This document shows positions 49,840 through 61,221 of a stretch of DNA of 64,000 nucleotides, one piece after another (within the stretch, counting starts at the first letter, position 1; each line of letters starts with the position of its first letter). Position numbers and translations under genes: made by a program. The notes beneath the pieces are model-generated. The model saw nothing but the letters and a program-made list of their open reading frames with translations. It searched no databases and was not told the origin of the DNA. This DNA is from an uncultured Eudoraea sp. (GTDB taxonomy: Bacteria; Bacteroidota; Bacteroidia; Flavobacteriales; Flavobacteriaceae). The stretch is taken from contig NZ_CANLGX010000004.1 in the NCBI RefSeq assembly GCF_947490415.1, positions 310,001-374,000 on the forward strand, given 5' to 3'.

Positions 49840-51060
49840 ATGGAAAAAGAAACCAAACATCAGCACAGAATACAGGATAAAATACGTCTGACCCTTAGGG
49901 TAAGCTATTTTGCTTCTATTTCCTCTATAATATTTGGTCTGGTTTGTCTTTTTTTCCTGGATATTTATGAAATTGTTCCCCATATATTTCTGGCCTTTGG
50001 TGCGTTGAGTGTAATTAATAACCTGGCCTATGCATCTCACAAAAACCTAACGCTTACCTATAACATCCTTTCTATACTTGGCTTAGCTTCAGCTACGGCC
50101 ATCACTATGTTAACAGGTGGCATAAACAGTCCGTTTATTTTTGTGCTGGCAATTGTTGTGTTTGCGGGATATGCGACAACGCGCAATTATGGGAAAATCT
50201 ATTTGTACCTCACTGTTCTGATTATTGCTTTAATTTTTGTTCAGGGAATTTCCGATTTTTCTTTAACCCAAAATGTTGTTCCCGTTGAGAGTCAAAACCT
50301 TTTTAGCTTTTTAAGCATATTGTTCTCCGTTTACCTCCTGGGTGGAGTGCTGGGTAAAAACCTCTTAAAAGCACACCACAACCTCTATAAAACCAAGATG
50401 GAAGTTGAAGAACGGATACATGAAAAGGACACCCTGCTCAAAGAAGTGCACCACAGGGTTAAAAATAATCTGCAAACGGTTTCCAGCCTGCTAAGCCTTC
50501 AGTCCAGGGGGATAAAGGATGAAAAAGTAAAAAATCTTATTAAAAGTAGTCAGAACAGAGTCATCTCTATGGCTATGGTACATGAAATGCTTTACATGCG
50601 CGACGATCTGTCTAAAATAAATTATAAATCCTATGTTGAAGAATTAAGTGAATATCTTGTGAAATCTGTAAAGGGTGCCGATAGTAACGTTAAGGTAAAC
50701 ATTAATATTCCTCAAATAGAATTGGGTATAGATACGGCTATACCTCTTGGCCTCCTCATCAACGAAGCACTAACAAATGCCCTTAAATATGGAATAAAAG
50801 GGGATGACCAGGGAGAAATACATATTGAGCTAAAGAAAATGGCTGATAAGGACTACATTCTAAATATTGGAGATAATGGTGTTGGTTTTTCAGAGGAAGT
50901 GAATTTTAAAAATACCCGTTCTCTGGGCTTAAAGCTAATTCATAACCTTGCCCGTCAGCTAAAAGGATCGATAATCAGAGACTTTTCCAAAAAAGGCACC
51001 AACTATATTGTTAATTTTAAAGAAATAGGTCAGAGCGACTTTCATCAATCGGTGGCTTAA
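49840..51060 (+). CDS. Membrane sensor histidine kinase, HisKA_2 type
   Basis: 406 residues. Five or six N-terminal helices (about 25-180) are followed by a short coiled coil and the HisKA_2 dimerisation domain, LLKEVHHRVKNNLQTVSSLLSLQ, with the phospho-accepting His at 204 or 205. The HATPase domain shows NEALTNALKYG (N-box) and IGDNGVGFS (G1). There is no attached receiver domain and no response regulator next to it, so its partner must be encoded elsewhere. HisKA_2 kinases often signal light or stress states. The first Met is in a good position. Confidence 0.92.
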   Translation: MEKETKHQHRIQDKIRLTLRVSYFASISSIIFGLVCLFFLDIYEIVPHIFLAFGALSVINNLAYASHKNLTLTYNILSILGLASATAITMLTGGINSPFIFVLAIVVFAGYATTRNYGKIYLYLTVLIIALIFVQGISDFSLTQNVVPVESQNLFSFLSILFSVYLLGGVLGKNLLKAHHNLYKTKMEVEERIHEKDTLLKEVHHRVKNNLQTVSSLLSLQSRGIKDEKVKNLIKSSQNRVISMAMVHEMLYMRDDLSKINYKSYVEELSEYLVKSVKGADSNVKVNINIPQIELGIDTAIPLGLLINEALTNALKYGIKGDDQGEIHIELKKMADKDYILNIGDNGVGFSEEVNFKNTRSLGLKLIHNLARQLKGSIIRDFSKKGTNYIVNFKEIGQSDFHQSVA

Positions 51061-55460: not shown

Positions 55461-55718
55461 TTAGGCTAATTTGGGTTTATTTTTTTTAGTAGTAAAAGCC
55501 AGAGCTTTCTTTACTCGTGTATTCTTGAATTTGTATAAGCGCGCAACAGCGTCTTCTTTTGTTGCCTCAATTTGCCCACTATTGTAAGAAACAGGAAGGC
55601 TAGCATCCAGAACAATATCCATTTGAAATGTTTCAACTTTACCATAGTCTGTAGTTTTTTGGGCCAGAGCAACAGCTCCGAATAAAAGTATAAGTACTAA
55701 GGTTAAAAATGCTTTCAT
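55461..55718 (-). CDS. Small secreted protein, paralogue A
   Basis: 85 residues with signal peptide (FLTLVLILLFGAVALA-Q). The mature part contains VETFQMDIV and ends in a basic block AVARLYKFKNTRVKKALAF followed by TTKKNKPKLA. The protein at 60835-61053 has the same ending with 23 of 29 identical residues and the equivalent VETIEMSIV, so they are paralogues. A shared 20-bp box lies 69 nt upstream and a hairpin directly before the ATG. The function is unknown; the net basic, Lys/Arg-rich mature form suggests binding to an anionic surface such as LPS or nucleic acid. Confidence 0.8.
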   Translation of the reverse strand: MKAFLTLVLILLFGAVALAQKTTDYGKVETFQMDIVLDASLPVSYNSGQIEATKEDAVARLYKFKNTRVKKALAFTTKKNKPKLA

Positions 55719-55720
55719 GC

Positions 55721-55739
55721 TATTAGATTGGGTCTAATA
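55721..55739 (-). promoter_or_regulatory. Start-codon-proximal hairpin of paralogue A
   Basis: TATTAGA (55721-55727) and TCTAATA (55733-55739) form a perfect 7-bp stem around TTGGG, 2 nt before the ATG on the minus strand. It could mask the ribosome binding site. A second palindrome, TACCCTTAGGGTA, lies at 55759-55771. Confidence 0.45.
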
Positions 55740-55787
55740 AAATAACTACAGAAAGTGGTACCCTTAGGGTATAAATCGCTGAAAGCA

Positions 55788-55807
55788 CCTTATTTTTCGG
55801 TAGCTGG
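55788..55807 (-). promoter_or_regulatory. Shared 20-bp upstream box, copy A
   Basis: On the minus strand it reads CCAGCTACCGAAAAATAAGG. It differs by one base from the box at 61124-61143 and has nearly the same distance to the start codon (69 nt). It is probably a regulator binding site. Confidence 0.55.
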
Positions 55808-56046
55808 AAAATTTTGCGATAAAGCGATAAAAATTTCGGATGAAAAGAATTGAAGCAAAAAACCCTTTATCGGAATTTTAGGTTTTTTAGCCGGTATTGT
55901 AAAGGGATTATATGGGTATTATTGAGAGAAATATGAAAAAAAACGCGGAAAAGGAAATATAATAATGTAAGAAATTGTTACTTCTTGAAGATTTATTTGG
56001 TAACGGACTTCAATATATCCAATTGAAGTTAATATTTGAAAAAACG

Positions 56047-56161
56047 AGATTTCTCACACTCACTAAGTTCGATTTTAAATGACAGATCTGGCTTACATCC
56101 GCTTTTTATAACCCAACCGGGTAATTTCGACATGAGTTGCAAAGGAACGATTGAGAAATCT
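56047..56161. repeat. REP-like palindromic repeat, copy 1
   Basis: The 115-bp unit is bordered by perfect inverted ends AGATTTCTCA and TGAGAAATCT. The centre contains GACAGATCTGGCTTACATCCG and AACCCAACCGGGTAATTTCGAC. It is one of two near-identical units 152 bp apart in the gene-free interval 55719-56394. Such dyads with the theme GTCATTTCGA occur widely in Flavobacteriia (from memory). Confidence 0.72.
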
Positions 56162-56198
56162 ATACTGCATGTAAGTGTGATTGAAAAAAGGTAAATTG

Positions 56199-56313
56199 AG
56201 ATTTCTCACGCTCACTTTGTTCGGTTCGAAATGACAGATCTGGCTTACATCCGTTTTTTATAACCCAACCGGGTCATTTCGACATGAGTTGCAAAGGAAC
56301 GATTGAGAAATCT
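56199..56313. repeat. REP-like palindromic repeat, copy 2
   Basis: It has the same length (115 bp) and the same inverted ends as copy 1, with about 10 substitutions. This copy keeps the internal dyad TCGAAATGAC (left) and GTCATTTCGA (right) perfectly. The right flank (ACTGTATTAAAATGTAAGTG) resembles that of copy 1 (ACTGCATGTAAGTG), so the flanks were duplicated too. A third partial left end, GAGATTTTCCACATTCAC, lies at 56351-56368. Confidence 0.72.
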
Positions 56314-56394
56314 AGACTGTATTAAAATGTAAGTGGAAATATGATCAAAAGAGATTTTCCACATTCACAGCATTGGGGTAAAGTACTCGTAAAT

Positions 56395-58950
56395 CTACCG
56401 ACCTTCCTTGCGTAGCACTACTAAAGGCGGACTGTTTAATACACTCCTGCTGTTACTAAGACCAATTAAGAGAACGAGTAATGTAACTCCGGGCAACAGT
56501 ACTAAAAAGGGTACTAAAGAAGGTACAAACGGCGCTTTAAAAACAAATGTAGCCAGTAACTGGCTGCTTATCAGTGAAAGTAATATGCCTATACCACTAC
56601 CCAAAACACCCAAATAAAAATATTCAAGGGCTGTGATTTTTAGAATTTGTTTGCTTTTTGCACCCAGGGTCCGTAAAAGAACGCTTTCCTTTATACGCTG
56701 ATATTTACTGGTACGTACAGCTCCTATTAATACAATAATACCAGTAAGGATACTAAAAAAGGCCATAAAATTAATTACCCAAGCAATCTTATCCAGAACA
56801 TTCTCTATGAGTGTTACAATTTGCCGCAAATCAAGCACCGAGATATTAGGAAATTTTTGAACTAATTCTCGTTGGAGGTTGGCTGAAGCCTCCGCATTGG
56901 GTGCATTAGTTGTTATAACGTGAAACTGCGGGGCATTTTCCAAAACTCCTTTAGGAAAGACCAGGTTAAAATTAGGTTGCATTCGTGCCCAGTCCACGGC
57001 GCGAATATTTCCCACAACGGTTTCCATCAAAACACCCTGGACATTGAAAACAATCGTATCTCCAACCACCACTTCAGCATCTCTGGCAATATTATCAGCA
57101 ATGGAAATAGGGATAAGACCTTCTTTAGGGGTTTCCGGTACCCATTCACCTTCAGTAAGGGTCTCCGAAGAAATCATGGAATCACGGTAGGTAACCCGAA
57201 ATTCGTGGTTCAAAACCCATTTATTCATTGTCAGGGTTGTGTCTTGTCGAAGATCATTAGCAGCCCGTCCTTTTATAGTATGCATACGCATCGTAACTAT
57301 TGGAATATTATCTAATAACGGAAGGCCTTTAGGGGTTATGCTATTTGCTACGTCTTCTTTTTGCTCGCTTTGTACGTCCAACAGAATTATGTTAGGACTA
57401 TCACTGTTGTTATCAAGCTGTGCCATTGCCAACAGCATATCTTTGGTAAAATAGAGCGTACTAATTAGAAAAGCCCCTACCCCTATAGCTACTAGTAATA
57501 CCATAGTTTGATTATTTGGCCGAAAAAGGTTTAACAGGCTTTGTCTTGAGGTAAAACTCCATTTGGCAGGAAAGAACTTTTTTATTCCCCTCATAAACAG
57601 AGTGGCAACACCAGCCAATATGGAGAAGGTTACCGCAATACTGATCACAAAACCAATGGCATAACGCAAGTTTTCTAAAAGCCAAAGGGAAAACAGGAAA
57701 ATAAAGATTAATATTCCTATAAATACGAGGGCCCTGGCTTTTCGGGGACGCTCCTCTTGTGTTTCTTGAATACGCAGTACCTGTAAAGGAGAGACGTACC
57801 AGGTACTCATAAGTGGCAATAGTGCAAACAGCACTGACATAAAGACTCCCAGTAATAAACCCATTATAATGGGCTGAGGCGCCAATGACAATTGCACTTC
57901 AAAAGGTAAAAAGTCCTGCAGCAGACTTGGAAATGTTTGTTGCAGCAATATACCTCCAATCGTTCCAATAACACCCCCCAGAAGGCCCATACCTGCTATT
58001 TGAATCAAATAAATAAGGAATGTCTGCTTTCGACTGGCACCCATACATTTAAGTACAGCCACCGACCTCAATTTTTCCTTTATATAGATTTGTACAGAAC
58101 TTGCGATACCTACACAGCCCAATAAAAGAGCAATAAATGCAACCAGGTTAAGGAATTTTCCAACATTTCCATAGGAACTACCCAGTTGTCTGCTCCCTGA
58201 TGTATGCGTATCCAGATCTGCATTCTCAGCATCCAAAATGGGGTCGAGTTCTTTGTCAAGAGCATCGAGGTCCATCTCCGGTGGGGCCTTAAAATAATAG
58301 TTATAGTCCAGACGACTACCCACCTGCAGTAGCCCCGTTCGTTCAATAATGCCAAATGGAATAATAACCGGGGGTGCCACAGAACTGGCAAATGCGCTAT
58401 TACCGGGTGCAGATATAAGTGTACCTGTAATTGGTAAACTAGCATTGCCTATTTTGATTATATCTCCGACTTCTAATTCAAACTGCAGCATCACTGTGGC
58501 ATCTAACAGGGCACCTTCATTAGAAATATACGAAGTTGCCGCATCTGCGGGTTCTGTCTCTATTTCCCCGTAAAGTGGAAAATCACCTTCAAGCCCCCTT
58601 ACACGAACCAGTTTACTGCTTTCATTCTTTGGAAATGCTGCCATGGATGCAAAATTCACTTCCATACCCTTTGCTCCTCCTAATGAATCTATAATTTCCT
58701 GCACTCTTTCATTCGGTAGTTGTCTTGAATCAATTATAAAATCCGCTCCCATAAGTGATTTGGACTGCAGGCGAATATTTTCTTTAAGATTATCACTGAA
58801 TGATTGGATTGAAACAAGTGCCGTAATACCAAGGATGATAGAGGCCATAAACAAAGTAAGTCGGCCTCCACTAGCCTTTCCATCGCGCCATGCCATTTTA
58901 AAAAGCCAGCCTGTGCCTGCCAAAGATGAAGCTTTCTGTTGGTTTTTCAC
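56395..58950 (-). CDS. ABC transporter permease, YbbP-like (FtsX domains)
   Basis: 851 residues. It begins with a signal-anchor helix and contains about ten membrane helices with two FtsX-like permease domains, for example EKLRSVAVLKCMGASRKQTFLIYLIQIAGMGLLGG and YQRIKESVLLRTLGAKSKQILKITALEYFYLGVLG. A large periplasmic domain lies after the first helix. The ATPase gene precedes it with a 4-bp overlap, and the divergent SGNH hydrolase gene is next, which is the arrangement of ybbP-ybbA/tesA. The transported or extruded substrate (possibly a lipid or lipoprotein-like molecule) is unknown. Confidence 0.9.
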   Translation of the reverse strand: MKNQQKASSLAGTGWLFKMAWRDGKASGGRLTLFMASIILGITALVSIQSFSDNLKENIRLQSKSLMGADFIIDSRQLPNERVQEIIDSLGGAKGMEVNFASMAAFPKNESSKLVRVRGLEGDFPLYGEIETEPADAATSYISNEGALLDATVMLQFELEVGDIIKIGNASLPITGTLISAPGNSAFASSVAPPVIIPFGIIERTGLLQVGSRLDYNYYFKAPPEMDLDALDKELDPILDAENADLDTHTSGSRQLGSSYGNVGKFLNLVAFIALLLGCVGIASSVQIYIKEKLRSVAVLKCMGASRKQTFLIYLIQIAGMGLLGGVIGTIGGILLQQTFPSLLQDFLPFEVQLSLAPQPIIMGLLLGVFMSVLFALLPLMSTWYVSPLQVLRIQETQEERPRKARALVFIGILIFIFLFSLWLLENLRYAIGFVISIAVTFSILAGVATLFMRGIKKFFPAKWSFTSRQSLLNLFRPNNQTMVLLVAIGVGAFLISTLYFTKDMLLAMAQLDNNSDSPNIILLDVQSEQKEDVANSITPKGLPLLDNIPIVTMRMHTIKGRAANDLRQDTTLTMNKWVLNHEFRVTYRDSMISSETLTEGEWVPETPKEGLIPISIADNIARDAEVVVGDTIVFNVQGVLMETVVGNIRAVDWARMQPNFNLVFPKGVLENAPQFHVITTNAPNAEASANLQRELVQKFPNISVLDLRQIVTLIENVLDKIAWVINFMAFFSILTGIIVLIGAVRTSKYQRIKESVLLRTLGAKSKQILKITALEYFYLGVLGSGIGILLSLISSQLLATFVFKAPFVPSLVPFLVLLPGVTLLVLLIGLSNSRSVLNSPPLVVLRKEGR

Positions 58951-59636
58951 GAGATTACTGTACTTTCATTAGCAACTATCTTTCCTCCTTTGAGCCTTAG
59001 AATATGCTGCGTACGTTTTGCAAGGTCCAGGTCGTGTGTTACAATAACCAAAGTAGTACCTGCTTCTTTATTAAGTTCAAAAAGCAGTTTAACTACTTTT
59101 TCTCCTGTTTCTTCATCAAGGTTACCGGTAGGCTCATCGGCAAAAAGGATAGAAGGCCTATTACTAAAAGCTCTTGCCAGAGCAACTCTCTGTTGCTCAC
59201 CACCTGATAACTGAGAGGGATAATGATGAGACCTATCTGCCAATCCTACTTTATGTAAAAGTTCCATCGCCTGCTTCCTGGCTTCCTTTGCCCCTTGTAA
59301 TTCTAAAGGTACACTTACGTTCTCCAGAGCTGTTAGCGTGGGAAGTAACTGAAAATCCTGAAAAATGAATCCCACTTCTCTATTGCGCAATAGGGCACGT
59401 TGATCTTCACTTAAATCGTTAATTCGAGTGCCACAAAGTTCAATGTAACCAGAGTCGGGATCATCTAAACCTGCGCATAGCCCCAATAAAGTAGTCTTAC
59501 CACTACCCGAGGGACCAACAATGGCAAAGGTATCCCCTTCCTCTATTTCAAAGGAAATAGCATCCAGAACAGTTAGTTTTTTAGAACCACTGGAATAGGT
59601 CTTCCCCAGTTGGTTAACGTTTAATATCTTTGACAT
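58947..59636 (-). CDS. ABC transporter ATP-binding protein, YbbA/LolD-like
   Basis: 229 residues. It has Walker A GPSGSGKTTLLGLCAGLD, Q-loop FIFQDFQLLPTLTALENV, signature LSGGEQQRVALARAF, Walker B ILFADEPTGNLDEETGEKV and switch His LVIVTHD. The MacB/LolD branch is indicated by FADEPTGNLD. It pairs with the YbbP-like permease (4-bp overlap). It is transcribed divergently from the SGNH hydrolase gene, with 74 bp between their starts. Confidence 0.92.
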   Translation of the reverse strand: MSKILNVNQLGKTYSSGSKKLTVLDAISFEIEEGDTFAIVGPSGSGKTTLLGLCAGLDDPDSGYIELCGTRINDLSEDQRALLRNREVGFIFQDFQLLPTLTALENVSVPLELQGAKEARKQAMELLHKVGLADRSHHYPSQLSGGEQQRVALARAFSNRPSILFADEPTGNLDEETGEKVVKLLFELNKEAGTTLVIVTHDLDLAKRTQHILRLKGGKIVANESTVIS

Positions 59637-59710
59637 TGGTAGAAATTAGATTTTGTTTGCAACGACGCAGCAAAATAAGGAAATGATTTCGACATTAAGA
59701 CCATTAAAAC

Positions 59711-60403
59711 ATGCAGACCTTCTTAAAATTTCGTTATTTTTTAGTGTTTTTACTATTGCTGGCTTGTGGAGAAAAGTCCGGAAAATCCTCAGAAAATTCT
59801 CCCGTTAACTCCGGGCAAACGGAAAATAGTGTCGTTCAAACCGGAAATAACAAAGTTATTATGTTCTTTGGTGATAGCCTCACAGCAGGCTACGGTCTTG
59901 ACACAGAGGAGGCTTTTCCGGCAGTAATTCAACAAATTGTTGATTCCCTTAATTTAAATTACACGGTTGTAAACGCGGGACTAAGCGGCGAAACAACAGC
60001 TAGTGGAAGAAACAGGCTTGACTGGGTGCTAAATCAAAAAGCCGACGTGTTTATTCTGGAATTGGGCGCCAATGATGGTTTGAGAGGTATTCCTTTAAAT
60101 GAGACCCGGTTAAACTTGCAGGCCATTGTGGATTCTGTTAAGGAGAAAAACCCGGATACAGTTATCATCCTTGCCGGGATGCAAATACCGCCAAACATGG
60201 GCCAGGAGTATACTAAGGAATTTAGAAGGATATTCCCTGAGTTGGCTGAACAGAACGAAACTTATCTTATACCTTTTTTACTGGATAATGTTGCAGGTAT
60301 TCCTGAATTAAACCAGGAAGACGGCATTCACCCTACCGTTGAAGGACAAAAAATTGTGGCTAATAACGTATGGGAAGTATTGGAACCGGTACTGACCAAA
60401 TAA
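59711..60403 (+). CDS. SGNH-hydrolase/arylesterase lipoprotein, TesA-like
   Basis: 230 residues with lipobox LLLACG near residue 18 and a linker of Ser/Asn/Gly. The GDSL block MFFGDSLTAGYGLDTEEAFP contains the nucleophile Ser. Block III is ELGANDGLRGIP and the Asp-His dyad is in EDGIHPTVEGQ. Family members hydrolyse thioesters, esters or lysophospholipids in the periplasm. E. coli tesA likewise lies next to ybbA. It is followed by an unknown membrane protein gene 27 bp downstream. Confidence 0.9.
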   Translation: MQTFLKFRYFLVFLLLLACGEKSGKSSENSPVNSGQTENSVVQTGNNKVIMFFGDSLTAGYGLDTEEAFPAVIQQIVDSLNLNYTVVNAGLSGETTASGRNRLDWVLNQKADVFILELGANDGLRGIPLNETRLNLQAIVDSVKEKNPDTVIILAGMQIPPNMGQEYTKEFRRIFPELAEQNETYLIPFLLDNVAGIPELNQEDGIHPTVEGQKIVANNVWEVLEPVLTK

Positions 60404-60430
60404 CCATAAAAACGTTTAATCCTAGATACT

Positions 60431-60805
60431 ATGGATAATATCATCAATGCACTTTCCTGGATAGATTCTGCTGCTGCCACGGTTTGGATTCTGCTTACAA
60501 TTATTATGTTCTGGTTTCTTTATAAAGTATATGAAGCAGAAGGGAGGAAACATCCAATCTTCCACTTTGGTATCTTCCTGCTGGTCCTGGTATGGTTATA
60601 TCCACTCTACACCTTTCTCTTTAACCAGTTAGAAGTTGCCTTTTTGGGCAATCTGATTACCTTATGGGCAACAGTAGTCTATATGCGAAAACTCAAACAA
60701 CTGCCAATTAAGGAATATAAATGGATGACTCCACAAATCGTCTGGATCATTATCGCTTCCTTCTATGTAGGATGTATGCTTTTGGAAAAATATCTGATGG
60801 CTTAA
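60431..60805 (+). CDS. Hypothetical four-helix membrane protein
   Basis: 124 residues with four predicted membrane helices (about 17-35, 45-65, 68-86, 101-121) and many Trp/Tyr. The family is not recognised; in size and Trp content it recalls TspO-like proteins but lacks their motifs. It is 27 bp downstream of the TesA-like gene and may be co-transcribed with it. It converges with small secreted paralogue B. Confidence 0.72.
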   Translation: MDNIINALSWIDSAAATVWILLTIIMFWFLYKVYEAEGRKHPIFHFGIFLLVLVWLYPLYTFLFNQLEVAFLGNLITLWATVVYMRKLKQLPIKEYKWMTPQIVWIIIASFYVGCMLLEKYLMA

Positions 60806-60834
60806 ATGAAAGGCATTAAAATGAAAGCTAAGAA

Positions 60835-61053
60835 TTAAGCCAATTTAGCTTTGTTTCTTTTTGTAGTAAAAGACAAAGCTTTCTTTACTCGGCTATTCTT
60901 GTTTTTGTACAAACGAGCAACAGTGTTTTCTTTAGTAGTTGAAGTAACTATACTCATTTCTATTGTTTCTACTTTGGTATCAACTTTAGAATCCTGAGCT
61001 TGAGCAGCTACTCCGATAAAAAGAACAAAAATTAAAGTTACAATCGTTTTCAT
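60835..61053 (-). CDS. Small secreted protein, paralogue B
   Basis: 72 residues. The frame opens one codon earlier with GTG, but the ATG at 61051-61053 is preferred. It has a signal peptide (TIVTLIFVLFIGVAAQA-Q). The mature protein has VETIEMSIV and the basic end TVARLYKNKNSRVKKALSF then TTKRNKAKLA, matching paralogue A. The 12-residue shorter middle is the main difference. It shares the upstream box and has a 26-bp palindrome before the ATG. The function is unknown. Confidence 0.8.
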   Translation of the reverse strand: MKTIVTLIFVLFIGVAAQAQDSKVDTKVETIEMSIVTSTTKENTVARLYKNKNSRVKKALSFTTKRNKAKLA

Positions 61054-61059
61054 CACTTG

Positions 61060-61085
61060 GGGCGTTTTATATATATAAAACGCCC
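61060..61085 (-). promoter_or_regulatory. 26-bp perfect palindrome before paralogue B
   Basis: GGGCGTTTT and AAAACGCCC arms around TATATATA make a perfect palindrome that ends 6 nt before the ATG. As RNA it forms a stable hairpin with the start codon right behind it, so it may limit ribosome access. As DNA it could bind a dimeric regulator. Confidence 0.5.
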
Positions 61086-61123
61086 AATGTGTATCTCATC
61101 CCGGTTGTAATTCGTCGAAAAAC

Positions 61124-61143
61124 CCTTATTTTTCGGTATCTGG
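61124..61143 (-). promoter_or_regulatory. Shared 20-bp upstream box, copy B
   Basis: On the minus strand it reads CCAGATACCGAAAAATAAGG, 19 of 20 identical to the box at 55788-55807, and lies 70 nt upstream of the start codon. Confidence 0.55.
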
Positions 61144-61221
61144 CAAAAACATGGATTAAGTGCAAAAAAGTGTCGATAAACGGATCAGCACCCTTAAACA
61201 CCTCAGCGATATTTTGTGTAT

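Follow-up and report, generated by a model that had tools for sequence, protein, structure and literature searches.

LytTR-type operators, among which the targets of AgrA also belong, are the closest described counterparts of the regulatory sequences reported here, and two classes of small protein further invite comparison: phage disruptins, which disrupt the outer membrane at lysis, and arrest peptides of the SecM/VemP type, whose regulated gene lies directly downstream on the same transcript. LytTR sites are described as two 9–11-nt repeats with 11–13-nt spacers (PMC4847170), and the bacteriocin genes of streptococci and lactic acid bacteria are among those driven by LytTR regulators (PMC6193735). 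Starting from a 64,000-nucleotide stretch of an uncultured Eudoraea sp. genome (contig NZ_CANLGX010000004.1, positions 310,001 to 374,000; hereafter the window), we describe a family of small, predicted exported proteins of Flavobacteriaceae, represented in the window by the genes P0001 and P0002. New here are the direct repeats (up to four) upstream of its genes, tandem units of 689–832 bp, and the finding that phages encode its basic C-terminal block. The repeat operator geometry and the phage copies go beyond the original prediction made for the two genes and lift the finding above an orphan family.

Both genes, whose coordinates had been given correctly, lie on the minus strand:

55461..55718, minus strand: P0001, 85-residue predicted exported protein with a signal peptide, the element KVETFQMDIV, a linker and a basic C-terminal block.
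60835..61053, minus strand: P0002, 72-residue predicted exported protein with the same architecture as P0001.

The original prediction took them for paralogues within a multi-copy secreted family whose members share one C-terminal block, and this reading is supported. Homology between P0001 and P0002 extends along their whole length (42/85 identities, E = 6e-24, BLASTP), their last 29 residues agree at 23 positions when counted on the alignment, and the KVETxxMxIV element is common to both. The signal peptide that had been noticed in the pair extends to the relatives: a regular expression picked out an AxA-type signal peptidase motif in 163 of the 165 distinct full-length proteins, a sample that includes near-identical sequences and on which the following anatomy rests. 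Mean pairwise identity reaches 0.50 in the signal peptide region and 0.63 in the last 29 residues, falling to 0.14 in the linker, a value that is low by method because the linkers were compared without gaps. The middle carries −0.07 charges per residue and is acidic in most proteins (negative in 80%); the C-terminal block is strongly basic (+0.30 per residue), with a net charge of at least +5 in the last 29 residues of 163/165 proteins. The final residue is alanine in 147/165, the usual endings being KLA (76) and KMA (51), and cysteine occurs in the mature part of 3/165. The constant basic block spans about 28 residues and ends at a free ...K(L/M)A; within it, Y49 and F62 are invariant and N53, L60, T64, K65 and K70 are present in at least 90% of 57 members. 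Exported would describe these proteins better than secreted, since they may stay in the periplasm or leave the cell.

The family is carried by all ten genomes of the genus (one of them the window's own), as recovered with a two-sequence profile, and by 72 of 397 Flavobacteriaceae genomes at E ≤ 1e-5 with a 57-member profile. The latter superseded an earlier two-sequence search (101/397 at E ≤ 0.01, many of them weak, between 1e-4 and 0.01). When copies per genome were counted with the 57-member profile, 63 of the 72 family-bearing genomes had at least two matches, with a maximum of nine (fragments may count, and up to 13 candidates per genome were scored). The multi-copy character therefore holds for the family and not for the window's own genome (3.89 Mb, 18 contigs), which has two copies only, three more matches (E 0.01–0.4) being at chance level with no third copy among them. 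In wider samples of the order (246 genomes) and phylum (395 genomes), matches occurred in the same six genomes, all from the window's own family, and no member was found outside Flavobacteriaceae; a plasmid search returned no relatives. A scan of named genome contigs, for which the best 80 of 133 relatives were kept (78 loci), placed the family in, among others, Eudoraea, Maribacter, Cellulophaga, Flagellimonas/Muricauda, Kriegella, Saonia, Euzebyella, unclassified metagenome-assembled genomes and a record titled Cytophaga sp. FL35.

No named domain had been recognised in the two proteins, and neither a match to a characterised family nor an absence of relatives outside the genome turned up to change this. 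P0001 and P0002 received no Pfam or NCBIfam assignment, the one Pfam match (E = 0.014) being under its cut-off, and the 57 members gave single-member matches only (Pfam, best E = 0.0018; NCBIfam, best E = 8.7e-4). In the parts available of the literature on LytTR regulators, small secreted proteins of Maribacter, Cellulophaga or Maribacter phages, disruptins and superinfection exclusion (including PMC6193735, PMC4847170, PMC13288928, PMC8776804 and PMC9636201), the family is not described. It is a previously unnamed family of often multi-copy, exported bacterial proteins. A second, diverged subfamily, with an MRTLF-type start and a block ending approximately in RALAFxTKxxRPKLA, adjoins ordinary copies in eight loci (L028, L031, L085, L089, L091, L109, L118 and L121), and some of its upstream regions display, by eye, a palindromic half-site form, TTCATCGATGAA.

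Each window gene has its own upstream region, as originally proposed, and the two regions have in common an exact 15-mer, TACCGAAAAATAAGG, at −84 and −85 from the ATG, which is found twice in the window at up to two mismatches against 0.37 expected. This 15-mer is one element of a longer series of direct repeats, with a half-site consensus of roughly CAxTT(T/C)ATC(G/C)A, scored here with a position weight matrix (PWM) that holds no spacing information and a threshold of 5.5 for host sites:

55832..55847, minus strand: half-site 1 of P0001 (candidate operator), starting at −129, PWM score 10.0.
55811..55826, minus strand: half-site 2 of P0001 (candidate operator), starting at −108, 21 bp from site 1, PWM score 8.4.
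55788..55802, minus strand: half-site 3 of P0001, TACCGAAAAATAAGG, under the PWM threshold, taken from the alignment of relatives.
55772..55785, minus strand: half-site 4 of P0001, CTTTCAGCGATTTA, under the PWM threshold, placed by eye.
61168..61183, minus strand: half-site 1 of P0002 (candidate operator), starting at −130, PWM score 11.6.
61147..61162, minus strand: half-site 2 of P0002 (candidate operator), starting at −109, PWM score 8.9.
61124..61138, minus strand: half-site 3 of P0002, TACCGAAAAATAAGG, under the PWM threshold, taken from the alignment of relatives.
61108..61122, minus strand: half-site 4 of P0002, TTTTTCGACGAATTA, under the PWM threshold, placed by eye.

In the window genes, the repeats start at about −130, −109, −85 and −68, with steps of 21, 19 and 21 bp in one register. 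Across 68 less-redundant upstream regions, 118 half-sites were recovered against 6.1 in mononucleotide shuffles, with at least one in 64/68 and at least two in 42/68, counts that lean in the matrix's favour because it was built on the same regions. The repeat-and-spacer arrangement of LytTR operators (PMC4847170; PMC6193735) was recovered in the spacing itself: half-sites 21 bp apart formed 89 pairs in the 78 loci, related loci included, versus none in the reversed sequence, while spacings of 19, 20 and 40 bp gave 9, 12 and 9 pairs versus 1, 0 and 0. Among 79 strong pairs in these loci, 66 precede family genes. Two other genes of the window's own genome, for proteins with signal-peptide-like starts, also have the repeat pair, at 108 and 99 bp ahead of the ATG. 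These two loci (L138 ~1501–1528, C4:18903; L143 ~1501–1528, C7:25837), both with the 21-bp spacing, encode a PD40-domain and a Big_9/cadherin-like protein. Elsewhere in this genome (L135/L136, C3:466889–466937), three half-sites follow one another at 21-bp intervals; no gene is obvious immediately downstream, and a possible short lipoprotein open reading frame (ORF) lies on the other strand.

Tandem amplification was seen as well. By self-comparison in Python, three genomes, chosen because their copies looked tandem, carry arrays with units of 725 bp, of 689 and 733 bp, and of 831–832 bp, 97–99% identical over 500 bp; Tandem Repeats Finder missed them because its longest period was 500. In the one array that was read out, a half-site pair above threshold precedes the gene in three of four copies and a single site in the fourth.

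The basic block is not confined to bacterial chromosomes. A tblastn search of 50,697 phage records with P0002 gave 11 matches at E ≤ 0.01, all in Maribacter or Cellulophaga phages, and a phage-type query against the same records gave 20 at E ≤ 10, again all in phages of these two hosts (GenBank and RefSeq duplicates counted, five of the 20 at E = 7). A hidden Markov model (HMM) built from host members only recovered Molly and Colly at 2.7e-15, the uncultivated lineages L198 at 4.5e-12 and L194 and L196/L197 at 1.3e-11, phi38:1 and phi40:1 at 1.1e-9, Calle at 2.5e-9, phiST at 3.7e-5 and phi13:1 at 4.5e-5, the best value in the reversed control being E = 2. The copies are of contrasted types. 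Molly and Colly encode a 65-residue protein with a signal-peptide-like start, and phiST and phi13:1 an unannotated 71-residue ORF with such a start and a diverged block; the phiST ORF (L210 2372–2584, record position ~71692–71904) ends in TKLC, like the Molly protein. A 50-residue protein without signal peptide is found in phi38:1, phi40:1 and Calle, and proteins of 37–45 residues, also without one, in the uncultivated lineages L194/L195, L196/L197 and L198. In these signal-less copies the block follows a short lysine-rich start and little more than the block is retained. According to the taxonomy lines of the records, Mollyvirus, Callevirus and Cbastvirus are separate genera, with a signal-peptide-like start on the block in Mollyvirus and Cbastvirus and none in Callevirus. 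The family is also present in Maribacter and Cellulophaga genomes other than the phages' own host strains. A viral-contig scan with P0002 alone as query found no relative, and a profile of the phage-type block gave seven matches at E ≤ 0.05 in 99 Bacteroidota genomes, namely the window's own genome at 2e-11 and six others at 0.016–0.046, a level expected by chance.

In Molly and Colly, the phage gene itself has two perfect copies of CCGTTTAACG ahead of it, which begin at −108 and −87, 21 bp apart. They score 4.6 and 5.2 and are the only pairs with both scores of at least 4.4 among 80,636 positions in the six phage loci scored (L196–L198 being left out), a threshold that was chosen after the scores were seen and lies below the 5.5 used for host sites. 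In the 124.7-kb Molly genome, the pattern occurs three times at up to three mismatches versus none in the control. The three places precede the family gene, a gene annotated as matrixin family metalloprotease (again at −108) and a short cluster with a lipoprotein-like gene. The phiST copy is preceded by a different 10-nt repeat, also with 21-bp spacing and nearer the ATG. In the neighbourhood of the phage copies, at L198 3478–5064, the block gene lies about 0.5 kb before an ORF that by eye resembles a phage GroEL, and phi38:1 has an annotated GroEL too, according to the portion available of PMC13288928. In that portion, gp072, the block protein of phi38:1, is not mentioned, the numbering being shifted (the RyR protein gp081 corresponds to gp079 of the record), and the methylation tables have no gp074 among the entries available.

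Taken together, these observations lead us to favour, with a probability of about 0.42, a reading in which the family consists of small Sec-exported effectors of the envelope or cell surface, controlled by dose, with a basic block that docks on a conserved partner which is a target of phages too. A LytTR-class regulator would activate the family genes jointly. On binding, the block would probably adopt a short helix; it would dock on one conserved partner, which may be an anionic envelope component or an envelope protein, and dose would matter to the outcome. By carrying the block, phages would occupy or modify that same partner, acting from the periplasm where their copy is exported, and from the cytoplasm or at lysis where it is not; signal-less copies imply that the partner is reachable from the cytoplasm, or that the action takes place at lysis. 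Since the tail is common to cells and viruses of the same marine bacteria, it probably serves a need of both.

Several results weigh against this reading. AlphaFold proposed no fold (mean predicted local distance difference test 67.9, predicted template modelling score 0.27), and apart from the signal helix modelled a single helix of low confidence at residues 46–60; searches of solved structures gave nothing meaningful (one match at E = 0.55 for the family profile, E 2.6–9.5 for the phage protein). On the operator side, the PWM gives half-sites 3 and 4 low scores, and 13 of the 79 strong pairs precede no listed gene, some lying at contig ends and some being palindromes picked up from the opposite strand. 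The window genes have no LytTR gene in their vicinity, the nearest on the contig being about 79 kb away, and the nine upstream regions inspected, those of eight LytTR genes and of the kinase introduced below, held no paired repeat. The signal-less phage copies fit poorly with a purely extracytoplasmic partner. No operator of the Molly kind lies upstream of the phiST or phi38:1 copy, and the Molly repeats may be the phage's own element, because its three promoters are alike over a longer stretch; their likeness to the host operator in spacing, place and sequence is still notable. LytTR control, the docking partner and phage interference with it are inferred.

The original prediction had the pair flank an ABC transporter/esterase cluster, and the cluster is indeed there: a permease and an ABC ATPase, named by eye, and a GDSL esterase and a TspO-like protein, named by Pfam. 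The last of these (60431–60805, 124 residues) is a membrane protein barely over the TspO_MBR cut-off (24.3 versus 24 bits). Two tandem 147-nt intergenic repeats, 88% identical, occupy 56041–56339 in the long spacer between the P0001 upstream region and the permease gene. The genes downstream of both window copies are convergent. In many of the 78 loci, the order from msrA to secA is M23 peptidase, family gene, (TspO-like), GDSL esterase, ATPase, permease, family gene, amidohydrolase, M14 peptidase, HisKA_2 kinase and secA, names being from Pfam for the window's genes and by eye for the others; copies located elsewhere occur in other loci, mostly of Maribacter. An arrest peptide of the SecM/VemP type was considered, with secA as a target because of its nearness, and rejected, as the genes downstream of the window copies are convergent and secA is convergent to the family genes, hence not in cis. 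A universal 5′ hairpin was only partly supported and was kept out of the argument: a perfect stem of at least 6 bp occurs in 29% of the 68 upstream regions versus 9% of mononucleotide shuffles, and both window genes have one.

61060..61085, minus strand: inverted repeat with 11-bp arms, 6 bp before the P0002 start codon; recurs in the family, not universal.
55721..55739, minus strand: inverted repeat with 7-bp arms before the P0001 start codon.
49840..51060, plus strand: HisKA_2 histidine kinase with a conserved N-terminal region, membrane-spanning by eye; a co-occurring neighbour and candidate partner only.

The N-terminal domain of this kinase matched 66 of the 397 genomes at E ≤ 1e-15, and 59 of these carry the family. 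Among 52 of the 59 that were tabulated, family and kinase lie on one contig in 49 and within 10 kb in 44; for the remaining three, fetched stretches put a family gene near the kinase in G168 and G233 and end with the contig in G059. Two or three adjacent, diverged HisKA_2 copies stand beside family genes in L074, L094 and L069. The kinase first appeared as an obligate partner on the strength of its presence in 59 of 72 family-bearing genomes. This was then weakened, because the Cellulophaga loci keep family and site without it (in L080, L082, L106 and L115 family genes abut SecA with no kinase between, and the copies of L080, L082 and L115 keep the TACCGAAAAATAAGG site with 0–1 mismatches) and because L167 and L168 have the kinase beside SecA and no family gene. 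In all, 13 of the 72 family-bearing genomes have no kinase match, two of them (G018 and G066) with weak family matches only, and seven genomes have the kinase without the family. The co-occurrence could reflect a single neighbourhood that was inherited vertically.

In the window's own genome, 12 LytTR matches were found, none in the locus and none linked to the repeat sites. A lone half-site (8.7) lies at −39 of the LytTR gene of L159 and a weak one (4.2) at −90 of that of L163; for the other four LytTR genes, the surrounding regions were only scanned coarsely. Given that no repeat pair was present at the eight LytTR genes examined, the candidate of an autoregulated LytTR gene was set aside and no regulator is named. 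Among the recurrent neighbours in other genomes, inspected by eye, were an ECF-like (extracytoplasmic function) sigma factor (c9) and a receiver-cyclase-like protein (c30, three loci), and no LytTR protein.

Three rival explanations were weighed. A membrane-active cationic peptide, antibacterial when secreted by the cell and reused by phages in a disruptin-like manner to break the outer membrane at lysis, would fit the basic charge of nearly all tails and the predicted helix, and the action of the endolysin would release even the signal-less phage copies. We nevertheless consider it unlikely, as the block, with its two invariant and five nearly invariant residues, is conserved beyond the needs of amphipathicity; no immunity-like neighbour recurred, by eye, among ORFs of at least 90 residues in the 78 loci (smaller genes would be missed); and the phage copies, where visible, are not beside a known lysis gene, the annotated endolysin of phi38:1 being about 4.6 kb from the block gene and the block of L194 lying, by eye, about 1 kb before a large-terminase-like gene. 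The portion available of PMC9636201 contains nothing on disruptins as a class. A structural or adhesive protein of the surface or matrix, anchored by its block to polyanions such as DNA, polysaccharide or lipopolysaccharide, would account for the amplification of dose and for the operator pair shared with the PD40 and Big_9/cadherin-like proteins. Only those two were seen, in a pattern scan that gave 17 matches versus 5 in the control, and most of the eight loci viewed were not upstream of such a gene; phages, above all those with signal-less copies, have no evident use for a matrix protein, and we hold this explanation to be quite unlikely.

We judge least probable of the three a secreted peptide signal, in which the protein or a processed C-terminal peptide would be sensed by the nearby multi-transmembrane HisKA_2 kinase and relayed to a LytTR regulator at the repeats, forming an Agr/Com-like circuit in Bacteroidota with which phages tamper through their copies. 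The LytTR-type operator, the frequency and proximity of the kinase and its multiplication beside family copies all speak for such a circuit, as does a general likeness to Agr/Com quorum sensing, namely a small exported protein, a nearby kinase with a membrane-spanning N-terminus and LytTR-type repeats. Unlike in those systems, the kinase is dispensable, being present without the family in some genomes and missing from others that keep both the family and its site; its gene has no operator, the window's locus contains no LytTR gene, hence no autoregulated response regulator, no processing or export enzymes were recognised and the conserved block is 28 residues long. In addition, the Fisher test of kinase and family co-occurrence ignores phylogeny, and phage copies that lack a signal peptide would be unable to act as exported signals.

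In the sea, Flavobacteriaceae play an important part in breaking down algal matter, and phages of Cellulophaga and Maribacter are available in culture. A family with a defined repeat operator, whose block is present in three isolated phage genera, offers a handle on a host–phage contact point and on LytTR-type control in Bacteroidota, and it adds to phiST-type phages a gene that their annotation lacks. Among described phage families, the 59-position phrog_26162 was matched at E ≤ 0.01 by 23 of 57 host members (best 1.1e-5), and it also matches phi38:1 gp072 (E = 9e-4) and L196 (E = 1e-3); L194, L198 and the Molly protein did not match it at E ≤ 0.01 and, unlike in phrog_26162, most copies here are chromosomal and predicted to be exported. 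Class II bacteriocins have a double-glycine leader, a dedicated exporter and an immunity gene; here, a Sec-type motif was found instead in almost all proteins, and no such neighbours recurred among ORFs of at least 90 residues. With LytTR-type operators, such as the targets of YpdB and HdrR/BrsR, the family shares direct repeats that recur every 21 bp ahead of the promoter, and half-sites such as CATTTCATCG resemble the GGCATTTCAT of YpdB (PMC4847170). It differs from the known ones by having up to four repeats rather than two, by its occurrence in Bacteroidota and by a product unrelated to bacteriocins. A bolder extension, which we regard as doubtful, is that the block is the key to a conserved envelope control point of Flavobacteriaceae, with its dose set by a LytTR-type multi-repeat operator and by gene amplification, and that several unrelated phages captured the block independently, once with operator-like repeats, to seize this control point. 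If true, it would constitute a shared host–phage module unlike the known peptide signalling, bacteriocin and lysis systems.

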